From Caulobacteraceae bacterium (lineage in GTDB: Bacteria > Pseudomonadota > Alphaproteobacteria > Caulobacterales > Caulobacteraceae): a stretch of DNA of 35,913 bases. Every line of letters starts with the position of its first letter. The first letter of the stretch is position 1. The stretch covers positions 1 through 35,913 of the forward strand of contig JADZBR010000162.1 of the NCBI GenBank assembly GCA_020852035.1. The letters are read 5' to 3'. Shown one piece after another: positions 12,928-17,913 of this stretch. The notes below the pieces were generated by a model that was given only the letters and a program-made list of their open reading frames with translations, was not told the DNA's origin and ran no database searches. The position numbers and the translations under genes were made by a program.

Positions 12928-13617
12928 ATGACCGCCCCGCTTGTCGACCTTTCCGTCCACCACCAGCCGCGCGGCGCGTCGGACCGCATCGCCTTCGGCT
13001 TCGTCAAGGCGCTGCGCTTCTTCGCCGACACCTTCTTCGCCAAGCGCTATGGCCACCGCGCCGTGGTGCTGGAAACCGTCGCGGCCGTCCCCGGCATGGT
13101 GGGGGCGACCCTCAACCACCTGAAATGCCTGCGTCGCATGGAAGACGACCGCGGCTGGATCAAGACGCTGATGGACGAGGCCGAGAACGAGCGCATGCAC
13201 CTGATGACCTTCATCGAGGTCTGCCGGCCGACGCTGTTCGAGCGCTTCGTGGTCGTGGCCGCCCAATGGGTCTTCTACCTCTTCTTCTTCGGCCTCTACC
13301 TGGTCAGCTCCAGGACCGCCCACCGCGTGGTCGGCTACTTCGAGGAGGAGGCGGTGATCAGCTACACCCACTACCTCGTCGAGATCGACGAAGGCCGCTC
13401 GGAGAACGTGCCGGCCCCGCAGATCGCCAGGACCTACTGGGGCCTGCCGGCCGATGCGCGGCTGCGCGACGTGGTCGAGGTGGTCCGCGCCGACGAGGCC
13501 CACCACCGCGACGTCAACCACGGCTTCGCCAACGAGATCGCCGGCCTGCCGCTGGCGAGCGTCGCCCCTTGCCCGCCGCATGTGGCGCAGGAGCCGAATT
13601 GGAAGAACGCGGCGTGA
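12928..13617 (+). CDS. aox: Alternative oxidase (cyanide-insensitive ubiquinol oxidase)
   Basis: All AOX diiron motifs present: [52 protein letters not shown]. Confidence 0.93.
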
Positions 13618-13753: not shown

Positions 13754-14218
13754 ATGACACAGCATGCGGACGATCGGGACGAGGCCGCGGCCCGCACGGA
13801 ACGGCGGCGGCTGATCGCGCCGGGGACGGCGGCCGGCGTCACTGAGGAGATGATCGGCGAACTGGTTCACACCTTCTACGGCCGCGTGCGCAAGGACCCG
13901 GCCCTGGGCCCGATCTTCAACCGCGAGGTGGAGGACTGGGACGAGCACCTGGCCAAGCTTTGCGACTTCTGGTCCTCGGTCACCCTGATGACCGGCCGGT
14001 TCAAGGGCGCGCCGATGGCGGCGCACGTCCGGGTGGCCGATATCCGGCCGACGCATTTCGCCCGCTGGCTGCACCTGTTCGGGGAGACGGCGCGCCAGGT
14101 CTGCCCGCCGGCGGCGGCCGACCTCTTCGCGGCCAAGGCCGAGATGATCGGCCAGAGCCTCCAACTCGGCATCGCGGCCAGTCGCGGCGAGTTGCCGGGC
14201 GCGCCGGCGGCCCGTTGA
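13754..14218 (+). CDS. Group III truncated haemoglobin
   Basis: EEMIGELVHTFYGRVRKDPALGPIFNREVEDWDEHLAKLCDFWSSVTLMTGRFKGAPMAAHVRVADIRPTHFARWLHLFGETA. Confidence 0.88.
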   Translation: MTQHADDRDEAAARTERRRLIAPGTAAGVTEEMIGELVHTFYGRVRKDPALGPIFNREVEDWDEHLAKLCDFWSSVTLMTGRFKGAPMAAHVRVADIRPTHFARWLHLFGETARQVCPPAAADLFAAKAEMIGQSLQLGIAASRGELPGAPAAR

Positions 14219-14231
14219 GTTTCGCTCGCCT

Positions 14232-14256
14232 TATAATATCGTGGAACGATATTATA
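14232..14256. promoter_or_regulatory. Operator-like palindrome, site 1
   Basis: TATAATATCGT-gga-ACGATATTATA, perfect 11-bp arms, ending 15 nt before the ATG of the PRC-barrel gene. Confidence 0.75.
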
Positions 14257-14271
14257 TCGGGCCTGGAGGAC

Positions 14272-14721
14272 ATGAAGATGGAGATGGACTGGTCGGCGCC
14301 CGACGGACGTTCGGGCCTGGGATTCATGAAGCCGAAGCGGACCTGGGTGCGGGCTCCCGGGCAAAGCTGGTATCGCCCCGCCGAAGCTTCGCCGTCGATG
14401 CGCGAGCCTCGCCCGCATCGGCGTGTGACCGCCAGTCGCGTGAAGGGCGCCGCCGTTTTCGGCCCCGGCGGGCGGCGGATCGGACGTGTCCGGGACGTGA
14501 TCATCGACGATGCGACTGGCCAGGTGGCCTTCGTGCTGATCGCTTGCGGCGGGATCCTGGGGTTCGGCGAGCGGCTGCGCCGCGCCAGCTGGTCGGCGCT
14601 GACCTACGAGGCGGAGCGGATTGGATATGTGCTGGACGAGGCCGGGGGCGATACGCCTTCGCCGGTTCCCCTCTCGAAGGCGGCGGTCCGCGATGACCGC
14701 GGCGCCGAGGCGGGGGGATAG
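14272..14721 (+). CDS. PRC-barrel domain protein
   Basis: RVTASRVKGAAVFGPGGRRIGRVRDVIIDDATGQVAFVLIACGGILGFGERLRRASWSALTYE; ggagg SD just upstream of ATG. Confidence 0.8.
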   Translation: MKMEMDWSAPDGRSGLGFMKPKRTWVRAPGQSWYRPAEASPSMREPRPHRRVTASRVKGAAVFGPGGRRIGRVRDVIIDDATGQVAFVLIACGGILGFGERLRRASWSALTYEAERIGYVLDEAGGDTPSPVPLSKAAVRDDRGAEAGG

Positions 14722-14766
14722 AACACCTCGACGCCGGGTCTGCCGGAGCACCTCCCTATGCGCTCG

Positions 14767-14791
14767 ATATATGTCGTTATACGATATAATT
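14767..14791. promoter_or_regulatory. Operator-like palindrome, site 2 (imperfect)
   Basis: ATATATGTCGT-tat-ACGATATAATT; same core CGT-N3-ACG geometry as sites 1 and 4. Confidence 0.55.
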
Positions 14792-14837
14792 CAAGAGAGC
14801 TCGTGACGGGGGCATGCGATGCGTCGTTGGCGAGGTG

Positions 14838-15062
14838 TCAGTGCGGCGAACGCGAGCCGTCCGGCCGGACATCGACGCCCACCAGGGGGCTCCAGTGGTG
14901 ATCTTCCGGATGGGCGCCCAACCGCAGCGCCGCCGACCTGATCTTGGCGTCCAGGTCGTGGAGCGCCTCGACCGACCGATCGTGCCGGTTCGTGAACGTC
15001 GGCGAGTTGGCGGGGAGCGGCTCCGGAACCTGGCCTTCCAGCAGGTCGGAATCTCGAATCAT
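14838..15062 (-). CDS. Small hypothetical protein (74 aa)
   Basis: ATG preceded by ctGGAGGctgacg; high-GC3 codon usage; MIRDSDLLEGQVPEPLPANSPTFTNRHDRSVEALHDLDAKIRSAALRLGAHPEDHHWSPLVGVDVRPDGSRSPH. Confidence 0.5.
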   Translation of the reverse strand: MIRDSDLLEGQVPEPLPANSPTFTNRHDRSVEALHDLDAKIRSAALRLGAHPEDHHWSPLVGVDVRPDGSRSPH

Positions 15063-15151
15063 CGTCAGCCTCCAGATGAATGCTGTCGCGACTGGCGTTT
15101 GGGATCAGTCCGGCAGGCTCGTCTAAAAGATATGCCTCGCGGCGGCGTAAT

Positions 15152-15171
15152 CAATCGCGTTACGATATAAA
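15152..15171. promoter_or_regulatory. Operator-like palindrome, site 3 (one strong half)
   Basis: caATCGcgttaCGATataaa between the 74-aa gene (-) and the MarR gene (+). Confidence 0.45.
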
Positions 15172-15343
15172 TCACCGCCTCGTGTCCCACCCGATCCGAG
15201 GCGCGGCGTCTTCGATGGGGCCAGCGCTTGTTCGACCCGCGTCGATATCGGGCGACGCCCTCCTCAGTGGAATTTGACGGGTGTCGCACCGGCGCGGGCT
15301 GCTCTACCAACGGCCCGTCCTGGACTCAGGAAAGGCAGCGACG

Positions 15344-15793
15344 ATGAGCGCTTCGAAAGGCCGGACGCCGGAACGCCCGACCCTGAACCAGGCCGACTAC
15401 GAAGCCCTGGCGTCCTTTCGCTACGCCGTGCGGCGCTATCTGGCCTTCGCCGAGGGCGGGGCCCGTTCGGTCGGCCTGACCTCGCAGCAGCACCAGGCCC
15501 TGCTGGCGATCAAGGCTCACACGCTCAGGGAGCCGATGTCGATCGGCGACCTCGCCGGAGAGTTGCTGTTGAAGCACCACAGCACCGTCGAGCTTCTCGG
15601 TCGTCTGGAGAAGGCCGGGTTCACCCGCAAGGCGGTCGACCCGCAGGACCGCCGCCGGGCGTTGATTTCCCTGACGCCGGCCGGCGAGGGCGTGCTGGCC
15701 GCGCTGTCGGCCAGCAACCTGCGAGAACTGCGGGTCATCGCCCCGGCGTTCTCGGGCCTGATTGGCCAACTGGAGCAGCTCAAGGCCGAATAG
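15344..15793 (+). CDS. MarR-family transcriptional regulator
   Basis: LTSQQHQALLAIKAHTLREPMSIGDLAGELLLKHHSTVELLGRLEKAGFTRKAVDPQDRRRALISLTPAGEGVL: MarR winged helix. Confidence 0.88.
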   Translation: MSASKGRTPERPTLNQADYEALASFRYAVRRYLAFAEGGARSVGLTSQQHQALLAIKAHTLREPMSIGDLAGELLLKHHSTVELLGRLEKAGFTRKAVDPQDRRRALISLTPAGEGVLAALSASNLRELRVIAPAFSGLIGQLEQLKAE

Positions 15794-15823
15794 TCGCCGG
15801 AAGACGCCGGCGGCGGCGAACGG

Positions 15824-16255
15824 TCAGCAGTATGGCGCGAGCAGATAGGGGTTGTAGTAGAGCGCGAGCCGCTCCTGCCAGGAGCGGTCGCCGGCCCCGA
15901 GCGCCTGCAGGTCCTCGTCGGAGAGCCGCGGCTCCTTCTCCAGTTCCGCCCTGTCCGCCGGGAGCACGTAGCCGCCAAGCGCCGCGTCATGGCGCAGGAG
16001 CCGCCAGGGCGCGGCGGAAACCCGCCGCAGGAAGCCCAGGCCGTTCTCCACATAGAGCAGCGCATAGTCGATATGGCCGGAAGCCTTGTCGATCGAAAGG
16101 TCGCCGACCCGGCCGCATCGTTCTCCCCGGGGACTGAACACCGGCGAACCGATCACCCGTGAGGCGCCGACCAGCCGCCGTGCGGGCCCCGTGGCGAGGA
16201 GGGGAATCACGACGTCCTCCGTTTCTGGACCTGGGGGATTCGCAATCCGTCTCAT
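15824..16255 (-). CDS. PRC-barrel domain protein
   Basis: RLVGASRVIGSPVFSPRGERCGRVGDLSIDKASGHIDYALLYVENGLGFLRRVSAAPWRLLRHDAALGGYVLPADRAELE. Confidence 0.8.
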   Translation of the reverse strand: MRRIANPPGPETEDVVIPLLATGPARRLVGASRVIGSPVFSPRGERCGRVGDLSIDKASGHIDYALLYVENGLGFLRRVSAAPWRLLRHDAALGGYVLPADRAELEKEPRLSDEDLQALGAGDRSWQERLALYYNPYLLAPYC

Positions 16256-16276
16256 CTGACTCGTCCCTCTCAGCTT

Positions 16277-16301
16277 GATAATATCGTATTACGATATAAA
16301 T
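16277..16301. promoter_or_regulatory. Operator-like palindrome, site 4
   Basis: GATAATATCGT-att-ACGATATAAAT in the divergent region between the PRC-barrel (-) and Rieske/FAD (+) genes. Confidence 0.7.
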
Positions 16302-16380: not shown

Positions 16381-17913
16381 ATGGCTGTCACCGGCGAACC
16401 GACAGGGCCGAACCTGGCCGCCGGCCTGCCGACCGGCGAAATCGCGGAGGGCGGCTGGGTGGCCGGCCATGTCGACGGCGAGCCGGTGCTGCTCTCGCGG
16501 CTGGACGGCGGCTGGTTCGCGGTCGGCGGCGCCTGCACGCACTACGGCGGCGCCCTGGGCGACGGGCTGGTGGCCGGCGAGACGGTGCGTTGCCCGCTGC
16601 ACCACGCCTGCTTCAGCCGCCGCACGGGCGAGGCGCTGGCGGCGCCGGCGTTCGATCCGCTCGGGGTCTGGCGCGTGGAGGTCCAGGGCGACCGCGTGCT
16701 TGTCAGGGCGCGCGCCGATACGCCGGCGCCCTCCCGGCCGGCCGGCCGGTCCGAGCGCCTGCGGCGCATCGTCATCGTCGGCGGCGGTGCGGCGGGATTC
16801 GCCGCCGCGGAGATGCTGCGGCGACGTGGCTACGACGGCTCGCTGATCATGCTGAGCGCCGACCAGGCCCCGCCATGCGACCGGCCCAACCTGTCCAAGG
16901 ACTACCTGGCCGGGACCGCGCCGGAGGATTGGATCCCCCTGAAAGGCGACGACTTCTACCGCGACAACGCCATCGACCTGCGTCTGGGCGCGCGGGTGGC
17001 GCGGATCGCCGACGCCGACGAGGTGGTGATGGCGGATGGCGAGCGGCTGGGATTCGACGCCCTGTTGCTGGCCACCGGCGCCGAGCCGGTGCGTTTGAAG
17101 GGGCCGGGGTTCGATGCGCCGAACGTCCACACCCTGCGCTCGCTCGCCGACGCCAGGGCGATCATCGCCGCGGCGGCCGACCGGCCGCGCGCGGTTGTGA
17201 TCGGCGCCAGCTTCATCGGCCTGGAAGTCGCCGCCTCGCTGCGCGCGCGGGGCCTGGAGGTGGCGGTGGCGGCGCCGGAGGCCGTGCCGATGGAGCGGGT
17301 GCTGGGTCGCGAACTCGGCGAGTTCGTGCGCGGCCTGCACGAGGCGCAGGGCGTGACCTTCCATCTCGGCGAAGGCGCGGAGTCCTATGCCGACGGACGC
17401 CTGCGCTTGTCCGGCGGGACCGAACTGGAAGCCGGGCTGGTGGTGCTGGGTGTCGGGGTGAGGCCGCGCGCCGAACTGGCGGAAGCCGCGGGGATCGCGG
17501 TGGACAACGGGATTCTCGTCGATGCTCGCCTGCGGACCAGCCGCGCCGCCGTCTTCGCCGCCGGCGATGTGGCGCGCTATCCCGATCCGCTGACGGGCGA
17601 GCCCATTCGGGTGGAGCACTGGGTGGCGGCCGAGCGCCAGGGGCAGGCCGCGGCCCGGAGCATGCTGGGCGAGGACGCGCCCTTCGCCGCGACGCCGTTC
17701 TTCTGGAGCAACCACTACGGGACCGAGATCCGCTATGTCGGGCATGGCGCGCGGTTCGACGCCGTCGAGGTGACGGGCTCGACCACCGCGGGCGACGTCG
17801 CGGTGCGCTACCTGCGGGCCGGGCGCCTGGTCGCGGCGGCGACGATCGGCCGCGACCTGGAGAACCTGACCATCGGCGCGGATCTGGAGCGGGCGCTCTC
17901 CTCGCCGGTTTGA
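16381..17913 (+). CDS. FAD-dependent oxidoreductase with N-terminal Rieske [2Fe-2S] domain (AIF/ferredoxin-reductase-like)
   Basis: CTHYGG...CPLHHACF Rieske ligands; RIVIVGGGAAGFAAAEMLRRRG, ALLLATGAEP, VFAAGDVARYPDPLTGEPIRVEHWVAAERQGQAAA. Confidence 0.93.
   Translation: MAVTGEPTGPNLAAGLPTGEIAEGGWVAGHVDGEPVLLSRLDGGWFAVGGACTHYGGALGDGLVAGETVRCPLHHACFSRRTGEALAAPAFDPLGVWRVEVQGDRVLVRARADTPAPSRPAGRSERLRRIVIVGGGAAGFAAAEMLRRRGYDGSLIMLSADQAPPCDRPNLSKDYLAGTAPEDWIPLKGDDFYRDNAIDLRLGARVARIADADEVVMADGERLGFDALLLATGAEPVRLKGPGFDAPNVHTLRSLADARAIIAAAADRPRAVVIGASFIGLEVAASLRARGLEVAVAAPEAVPMERVLGRELGEFVRGLHEAQGVTFHLGEGAESYADGRLRLSGGTELEAGLVVLGVGVRPRAELAEAAGIAVDNGILVDARLRTSRAAVFAAGDVARYPDPLTGEPIRVEHWVAAERQGQAAARSMLGEDAPFAATPFFWSNHYGTEIRYVGHGARFDAVEVTGSTTAGDVAVRYLRAGRLVAAATIGRDLENLTIGADLERALSSPV

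Follow-up and report, generated by a model that had tools for sequence, protein, structure and literature searches.

We propose that the AT-rich palindromes repeated in a window of 35,913 nucleotides from a Caulobacteraceae bacterium (assembly GCA_020852035.1, contig JADZBR010000162.1) are the operators of the MarR-family regulator encoded among them at 15344-15793, which would act as an autoregulated local repressor. We give this reading a probability of roughly 0.8, with binding, repression and autoregulation all inferred from sequence. Since the pairing of this MarR with its site recurs across the alphaproteobacteria, we consider that it represents a real, undescribed small regulon of the stress type. 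The first-pass annotation had already suggested that the genes here form a local regulon, with the MarR encoded among them as first candidate regulator, and this suggestion gains support from the confinement of the sites to the cluster, from footprinting across orthologues, and from the covariation of residue 80 of the protein with base 5 of the site.

Four palindromic sites around a MarR gene

The sites and genes of the cluster are the following:

14232..14256, unstranded: operator site 1, perfect palindrome, core start 14237 without mismatch, centre about 28 bp 5' of the PRC1 ATG
14272..14721, + strand: PRC-barrel protein 1 (PRC1; Pfam PRC, 2.7e-09), proposed target
14767..14791, unstranded: operator site 2, core 14772-14786 with 1 mismatch, where the 3' ends of PRC1 and the 74-aa ORF converge
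14838..15062, - strand: 74-aa ORF, codon-position GC looks coding
15152..15171, unstranded: operator site 3, core 15153-15167 with 2 mismatches, in the gap separating the 74-aa ORF from the divergent marR
15344..15793, + strand: MarR-family regulator P0001, 149 aa by translation (Pfam MarR_2, 8.7e-09), proposed repressor
15824..16255, - strand: PRC-barrel protein 2 (PRC2; Pfam PRC, 3.8e-07), proposed target, with homologues in loci L064 and L065
16277..16301, unstranded: operator site 4, core 16282-16296 without mismatch, between the divergent PRC2 and Rieske/FAD genes
16381..17913, + strand: Rieske plus FAD pyridine-nucleotide-disulphide oxidoreductase (Pyr_redox_2, 8.6e-55; Rieske, 6.5e-13), proposed target

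The unit common to the four sites is a 15-bp core, TATCGT-N3-ACGATA, whose spacer varies from site to site (GGA, TAT, GTT and ATT). Site 1, which reads TATAATATCGT-GGA-ACGATATTATA, is indeed the perfect inverted repeat that had been described, with 11-bp arms and 3 bp between them, and the repetition at four sites within 2 kb also holds, as dinucleotide shuffles of the window produced a mean of 0.22 core sites and never four. When the full 25-bp pattern was searched with up to 3 mismatches, site 1 was the only match among the four; thus, the shared unit is a core of 15-17 bp and not the whole 25-mer. Moreover, the motif is not scattered over the genome. In a scan of the whole assembly (88% complete; 3.2 Mb in 392 contigs), matches to the core at up to 1 mismatch were found at three places, all of them within the MarR cluster, with no match for the reversed pattern used as a control. 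A looser pattern added a single near match, ATATCGTTTATCGATGT, on contig C236.

The sites are placed around the cluster genes as the first-pass annotation had it, with a qualification for site 2, which lies between the 3' ends of convergent genes and is therefore not an obvious promoter site. The centre of site 4 is 34 bp from the start of PRC2 (16255). The overlap with TATAAT/TATTAT-like -10 sequences that had been reported was not supported: a sigma-70 scan near the sites returned no promoter, and a search for a terminator pattern likewise returned none. Several features speak against the MarR reading, among them that site 3, the nearest to marR, is the weakest of the four, that site 2 has no obvious start downstream, and that no promoter was recognised at the sites. 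We also noticed a perfect site in the Phenylobacterium genome G136 (L093, 9970-9984) that lies between two convergent genes, away from marR; it resembles site 2 of the window and, like it, has no obvious promoter role.

This arrangement could be explained differently if MarR binds but activates, or if the sites work together through looping or as a roadblock, and not by simple promoter occlusion. The spacing of several sites at 0.4-1.1 kb from each other, the site between convergent gene ends and the lack of a recognisable promoter beside the sites would all fit. However, centres located 27-38 bp from the PRC start codons, together with sites in the short divergent intergenic regions between marR and clc in relatives, correspond to the usual layout of repressors in the MarR family, so we regard activation or looping as unlikely.

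The MarR protein

P0001, which is the sole copy in the assembly, carries a winged helix recognised by Pfam MarR_2 (35.9 bits, cut-off 27), with HTH_27 and MarR also above their cut-offs, and its predicted recognition helix reads HHSTVEL. The palindromic operator expected of the MarR family is present at sites 1-4, weakly so between marR and the 74-aa ORF (site 3). The protein has no cysteine, which rules out redox sensing by cysteine of the OhrR or DUF24 type. Among the NCBIfam models for characterised regulators, HpaR, BagL/FevM, BilQ, Saro_0803 and Rv0880 gave P0001 only 20-33 bits against cut-offs of 121-230. Neither a family nor a homologue was found in our searches with the 74-aa ORF.

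Conservation of the site beside MarR relatives

To follow the motif beyond the window, MarR relatives were gathered from 199 Caulobacteraceae genomes, from the class Alphaproteobacteria and from plasmids. The motif (up to 2 mismatches, within 400 bp upstream) was found for 30 of the 40 relatives scoring at least 100 bits, the remaining 10 having no close upstream match, and in none of 1827 control stretches of equal length taken at random from the window outside the cluster. The MarR gene is accompanied by an exact or nearly exact site in Rhizobium, Mesorhizobium, Sphingobium, Methylocella, Acidiphilium, Bradyrhizobium, Sinorhizobium, Sphingomonas and, more distantly, on a Rhodococcus plasmid, with an overall consensus of about WTATCGY-N3-RCGATAW. 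By such phylogenetic footprinting, the palindrome is linked to orthologues of the window MarR across genera and orders. In the 26 MarR-bearing genomes scanned at up to 1 mismatch, 56 sites were counted versus 6 when the pattern was reversed as a control, and many of the 56 sit on the contig that carries MarR. A contig scan with the single sequence returned one close relative only. In G136, as in the window, the strong sites are located at target genes and not before marR; this and the 10 relatives lacking a close upstream match count against the MarR reading. As a separate observation, the Rhodococcus plasmid, from an actinobacterium, has two perfect copies of the operator beside its MarR gene (L159, 2755 and 3925).

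A second explanation is that the sites are the operators of another regulator, for example an XRE/DUF2975 (YozG-type) module with the very similar palindrome TATCG-TTTAA-CGATA. This palindrome is conserved beside the XRE-DUF2975 pair in many Brevundimonas-like genomes, and the window's own genome has such a module, whose site is the C236 match mentioned above. The outer half-sites, TATCG and CGATA, are nearly identical in the two systems. However, the XRE-type sites belong to another protein family, occur mostly once per genome and keep their centre nearly fixed as TTTAA or TTAAA, unlike the variable spacers of the window. In addition, the cluster contains no XRE gene, and MarR relatives also have the motif at loci showing no XRE neighbour. 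We therefore rejected this identity as very unlikely, the XRE site being a look-alike palindrome at a separate, unrelated XRE-DUF2975/rdgB locus on C236. That palindrome, TATCGTTTAACGATA, is probably the operator of the XRE protein: it was observed beside the XRE-DUF2975 pair and rdgB in L038-L063 (locus position 1501-1515) and L108 (position 1501), mostly as a single copy per genome in a genus resembling Brevundimonas, with a degenerate version in the genome of the window.

Finally, it is barely credible that the palindromes arose by chance as AT-rich sequences, or belong to a dispersed repeat, and are devoid of regulatory meaning: bacterial genomes do hold dispersed palindromic elements and these AT-rich sites lie in a GC-rich window, but the shuffles speak against it, and the lack of further copies in the assembly and the conservation of the motif across genera beside one gene family refute it.

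A candidate specificity switch at residue 80

More distant relatives have symmetric variants of the site, such as TATCAT-N3-RTGATA, and these variants vary together with the protein. Where a site was called, every protein with a G-type site (TATCG; 34 of 34) has Ser or Thr at residue 80 of the predicted recognition helix, and every protein with a symmetric A/C-type site (TATC(A/C); 7 of 7) has Ala or Gly there. Residue 83 also changes between the two classes, from Glu/Gly to Gln/Ala. The maximum-likelihood tree forces at least two switches of site type, one of them in the Rhodococcus branch, as the protein from Rhodococcus (Ser80, G-type) falls together with those from Burkholderia and Klebsiella (Ala/Gly80, A-type). 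Alignment columns 45, 50 and 122 split the site classes as well as residue 80 or better; thus, part of the correlation of residue 80 reflects ancestry. We infer that residue 80 of the predicted recognition helix is matched to base 5 of the operator, bearing in mind that two independent events are few.

A conserved regulator with changing proposed targets

The genes adjoining the sites in relatives are chiefly MarR itself (32 members) and ClC/CBS chloride channels (22 members), a divergent ClC chloride channel being the paired gene in most hosts. These MarR-ClC divergons occur on both plasmids and chromosomes of alphaproteobacteria. In the tree, the clade of the window MarR consists of four Phenylobacterium members (the window, G088, G136 and Phenylobacterium palsa_901) and nests among the ClC-associated MarRs. 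A search for ClC (PF00654) found no match in the window assembly, which is 88% complete, nor in G088 or G136. In this Phenylobacterium subclade the genes preceded by sites are PRC-barrel, Rieske/FAD, secY or oxidase genes. With ClC absent and other genes at the sites, the regulator and its operator are kept while the proposed targets differ.

Several other genes are found at the sites in a lineage-specific manner: cytochrome oxidase subunit I, a secY homologue, PRC-barrel, Bax-inhibitor-1, a PQQ dehydrogenase and DUF4336. In two further Phenylobacterium genomes (L065 and L064), a site precedes the PRC-barrel genes by 27-38 bp. The secY homologue lies next to marR, behind two adjacent operator sites, in two Phenylobacterium genomes (L065, 8295-9641; L098, 10549-11901), and is probably an additional copy, apart from the one in the ribosomal operon. 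Genes for superoxide dismutase, otsBA, cfa, cyd, peroxiredoxin and metB are near sites, without each being shown directly behind one.

Taken more broadly, and with a confidence only slightly above even, an undescribed MarR subfamily extending across the alphaproteobacteria and beyond may read TATCGY-N3-RCGATA via residue 80 (Ser/Thr for G; Ala/Gly for A/C) and ancestrally control ClC. It would have been rewired in the ClC-less Phenylobacterium clade to PRC-barrel, secY and oxidase genes with its operator retained, an example of a regulator whose site persists as the genes under its control change. For a large set of MarR proteins that lack annotation, this would supply an operator open to testing, a list of targets and, in residue 80 versus base 5, a candidate switch of specificity, and it would tie ClC chloride channels to a specific regulator. 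These channels have been implicated in rhizobial acid tolerance by work on R. tropici sycA, as cited in PMC5936775.

Proposed mechanism and signal

In our model, a MarR dimer would insert one recognition helix into each TATCGY half-site. Bound at sites near the start codons, it would repress PRC1 from site 1 and both PRC2 and the Rieske/FAD gene from site 4, while weaker binding at site 3, in the divergent region between marR and the 74-aa ORF, would provide autoregulation. A ligand or a physical signal would then release MarR and end the repression. It is tempting to guess that this signal is acid, ionic or envelope stress, because ClC, trehalose synthesis, cytochrome oxidase, superoxide dismutase, cyclopropane synthase and PRC-barrel genes are located at or near the sites of relatives. 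The acid part remains a guess, as the relevant passages of Rhizobium acid-stress papers give it no direct support: in them, the R. tropici ClC genes appear with near-zero values and are not given as acid-induced, and a MarR acid mutant is likened to Rv1404 and not linked to ClC.

Comparison with known systems

Repression by MarR proteins through palindromic operators close at hand is a known kind of system. A close parallel is AesR from Corynebacterium glutamicum, an autoregulated MarR-family repressor with the REP1 operator ACTATG-N3-CATAGT (PMC13413800). The two systems share the MarR winged helix, half-sites of 6 bp set 3 bp apart, an operator in the regulator's own divergent intergenic region and a small local regulon; the window system differs in its half-site (TATCGY), its targets and the lack of cysteine in P0001. 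HpaR, the regulator of the homoprotocatechuate operon, is among the best NCBIfam matches and shares the superfamily with P0001, whose 32 bits are far under the cut-off of 121; moreover, no aromatic-degradation operon adjoins its gene. Also related are the MarR-ClC divergons, for example those of Rhizobium phaseoli pRphaR744b and Acidiphilium cryptum pACRY02, whose MarR is about 46-50% identical and whose operator sequence is the same. Their partner is the ClC/CBS channel, whereas the window sites stand before PRC-barrel and Rieske/FAD genes. The open-licence literature, searched for the motif and for MarR together with a chloride channel or a PRC-barrel, yielded no publication on this pair, so that the pair of MarR and palindrome itself appears to be undescribed.

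Upstream of the cluster, the window carries an alternative oxidase gene (12928-13617; Pfam AOX, 5.9e-83) followed by a gene resembling group III truncated haemoglobins (13754-14218), which was called by eye and had no match in the Pfam search. We considered a terminal-oxidase or NO regulon including these two genes and rejected it, as no site with up to 2 mismatches lies near either. This globin-like gene is also found near the MarR gene in L098 and L067, with 69-72% identity.
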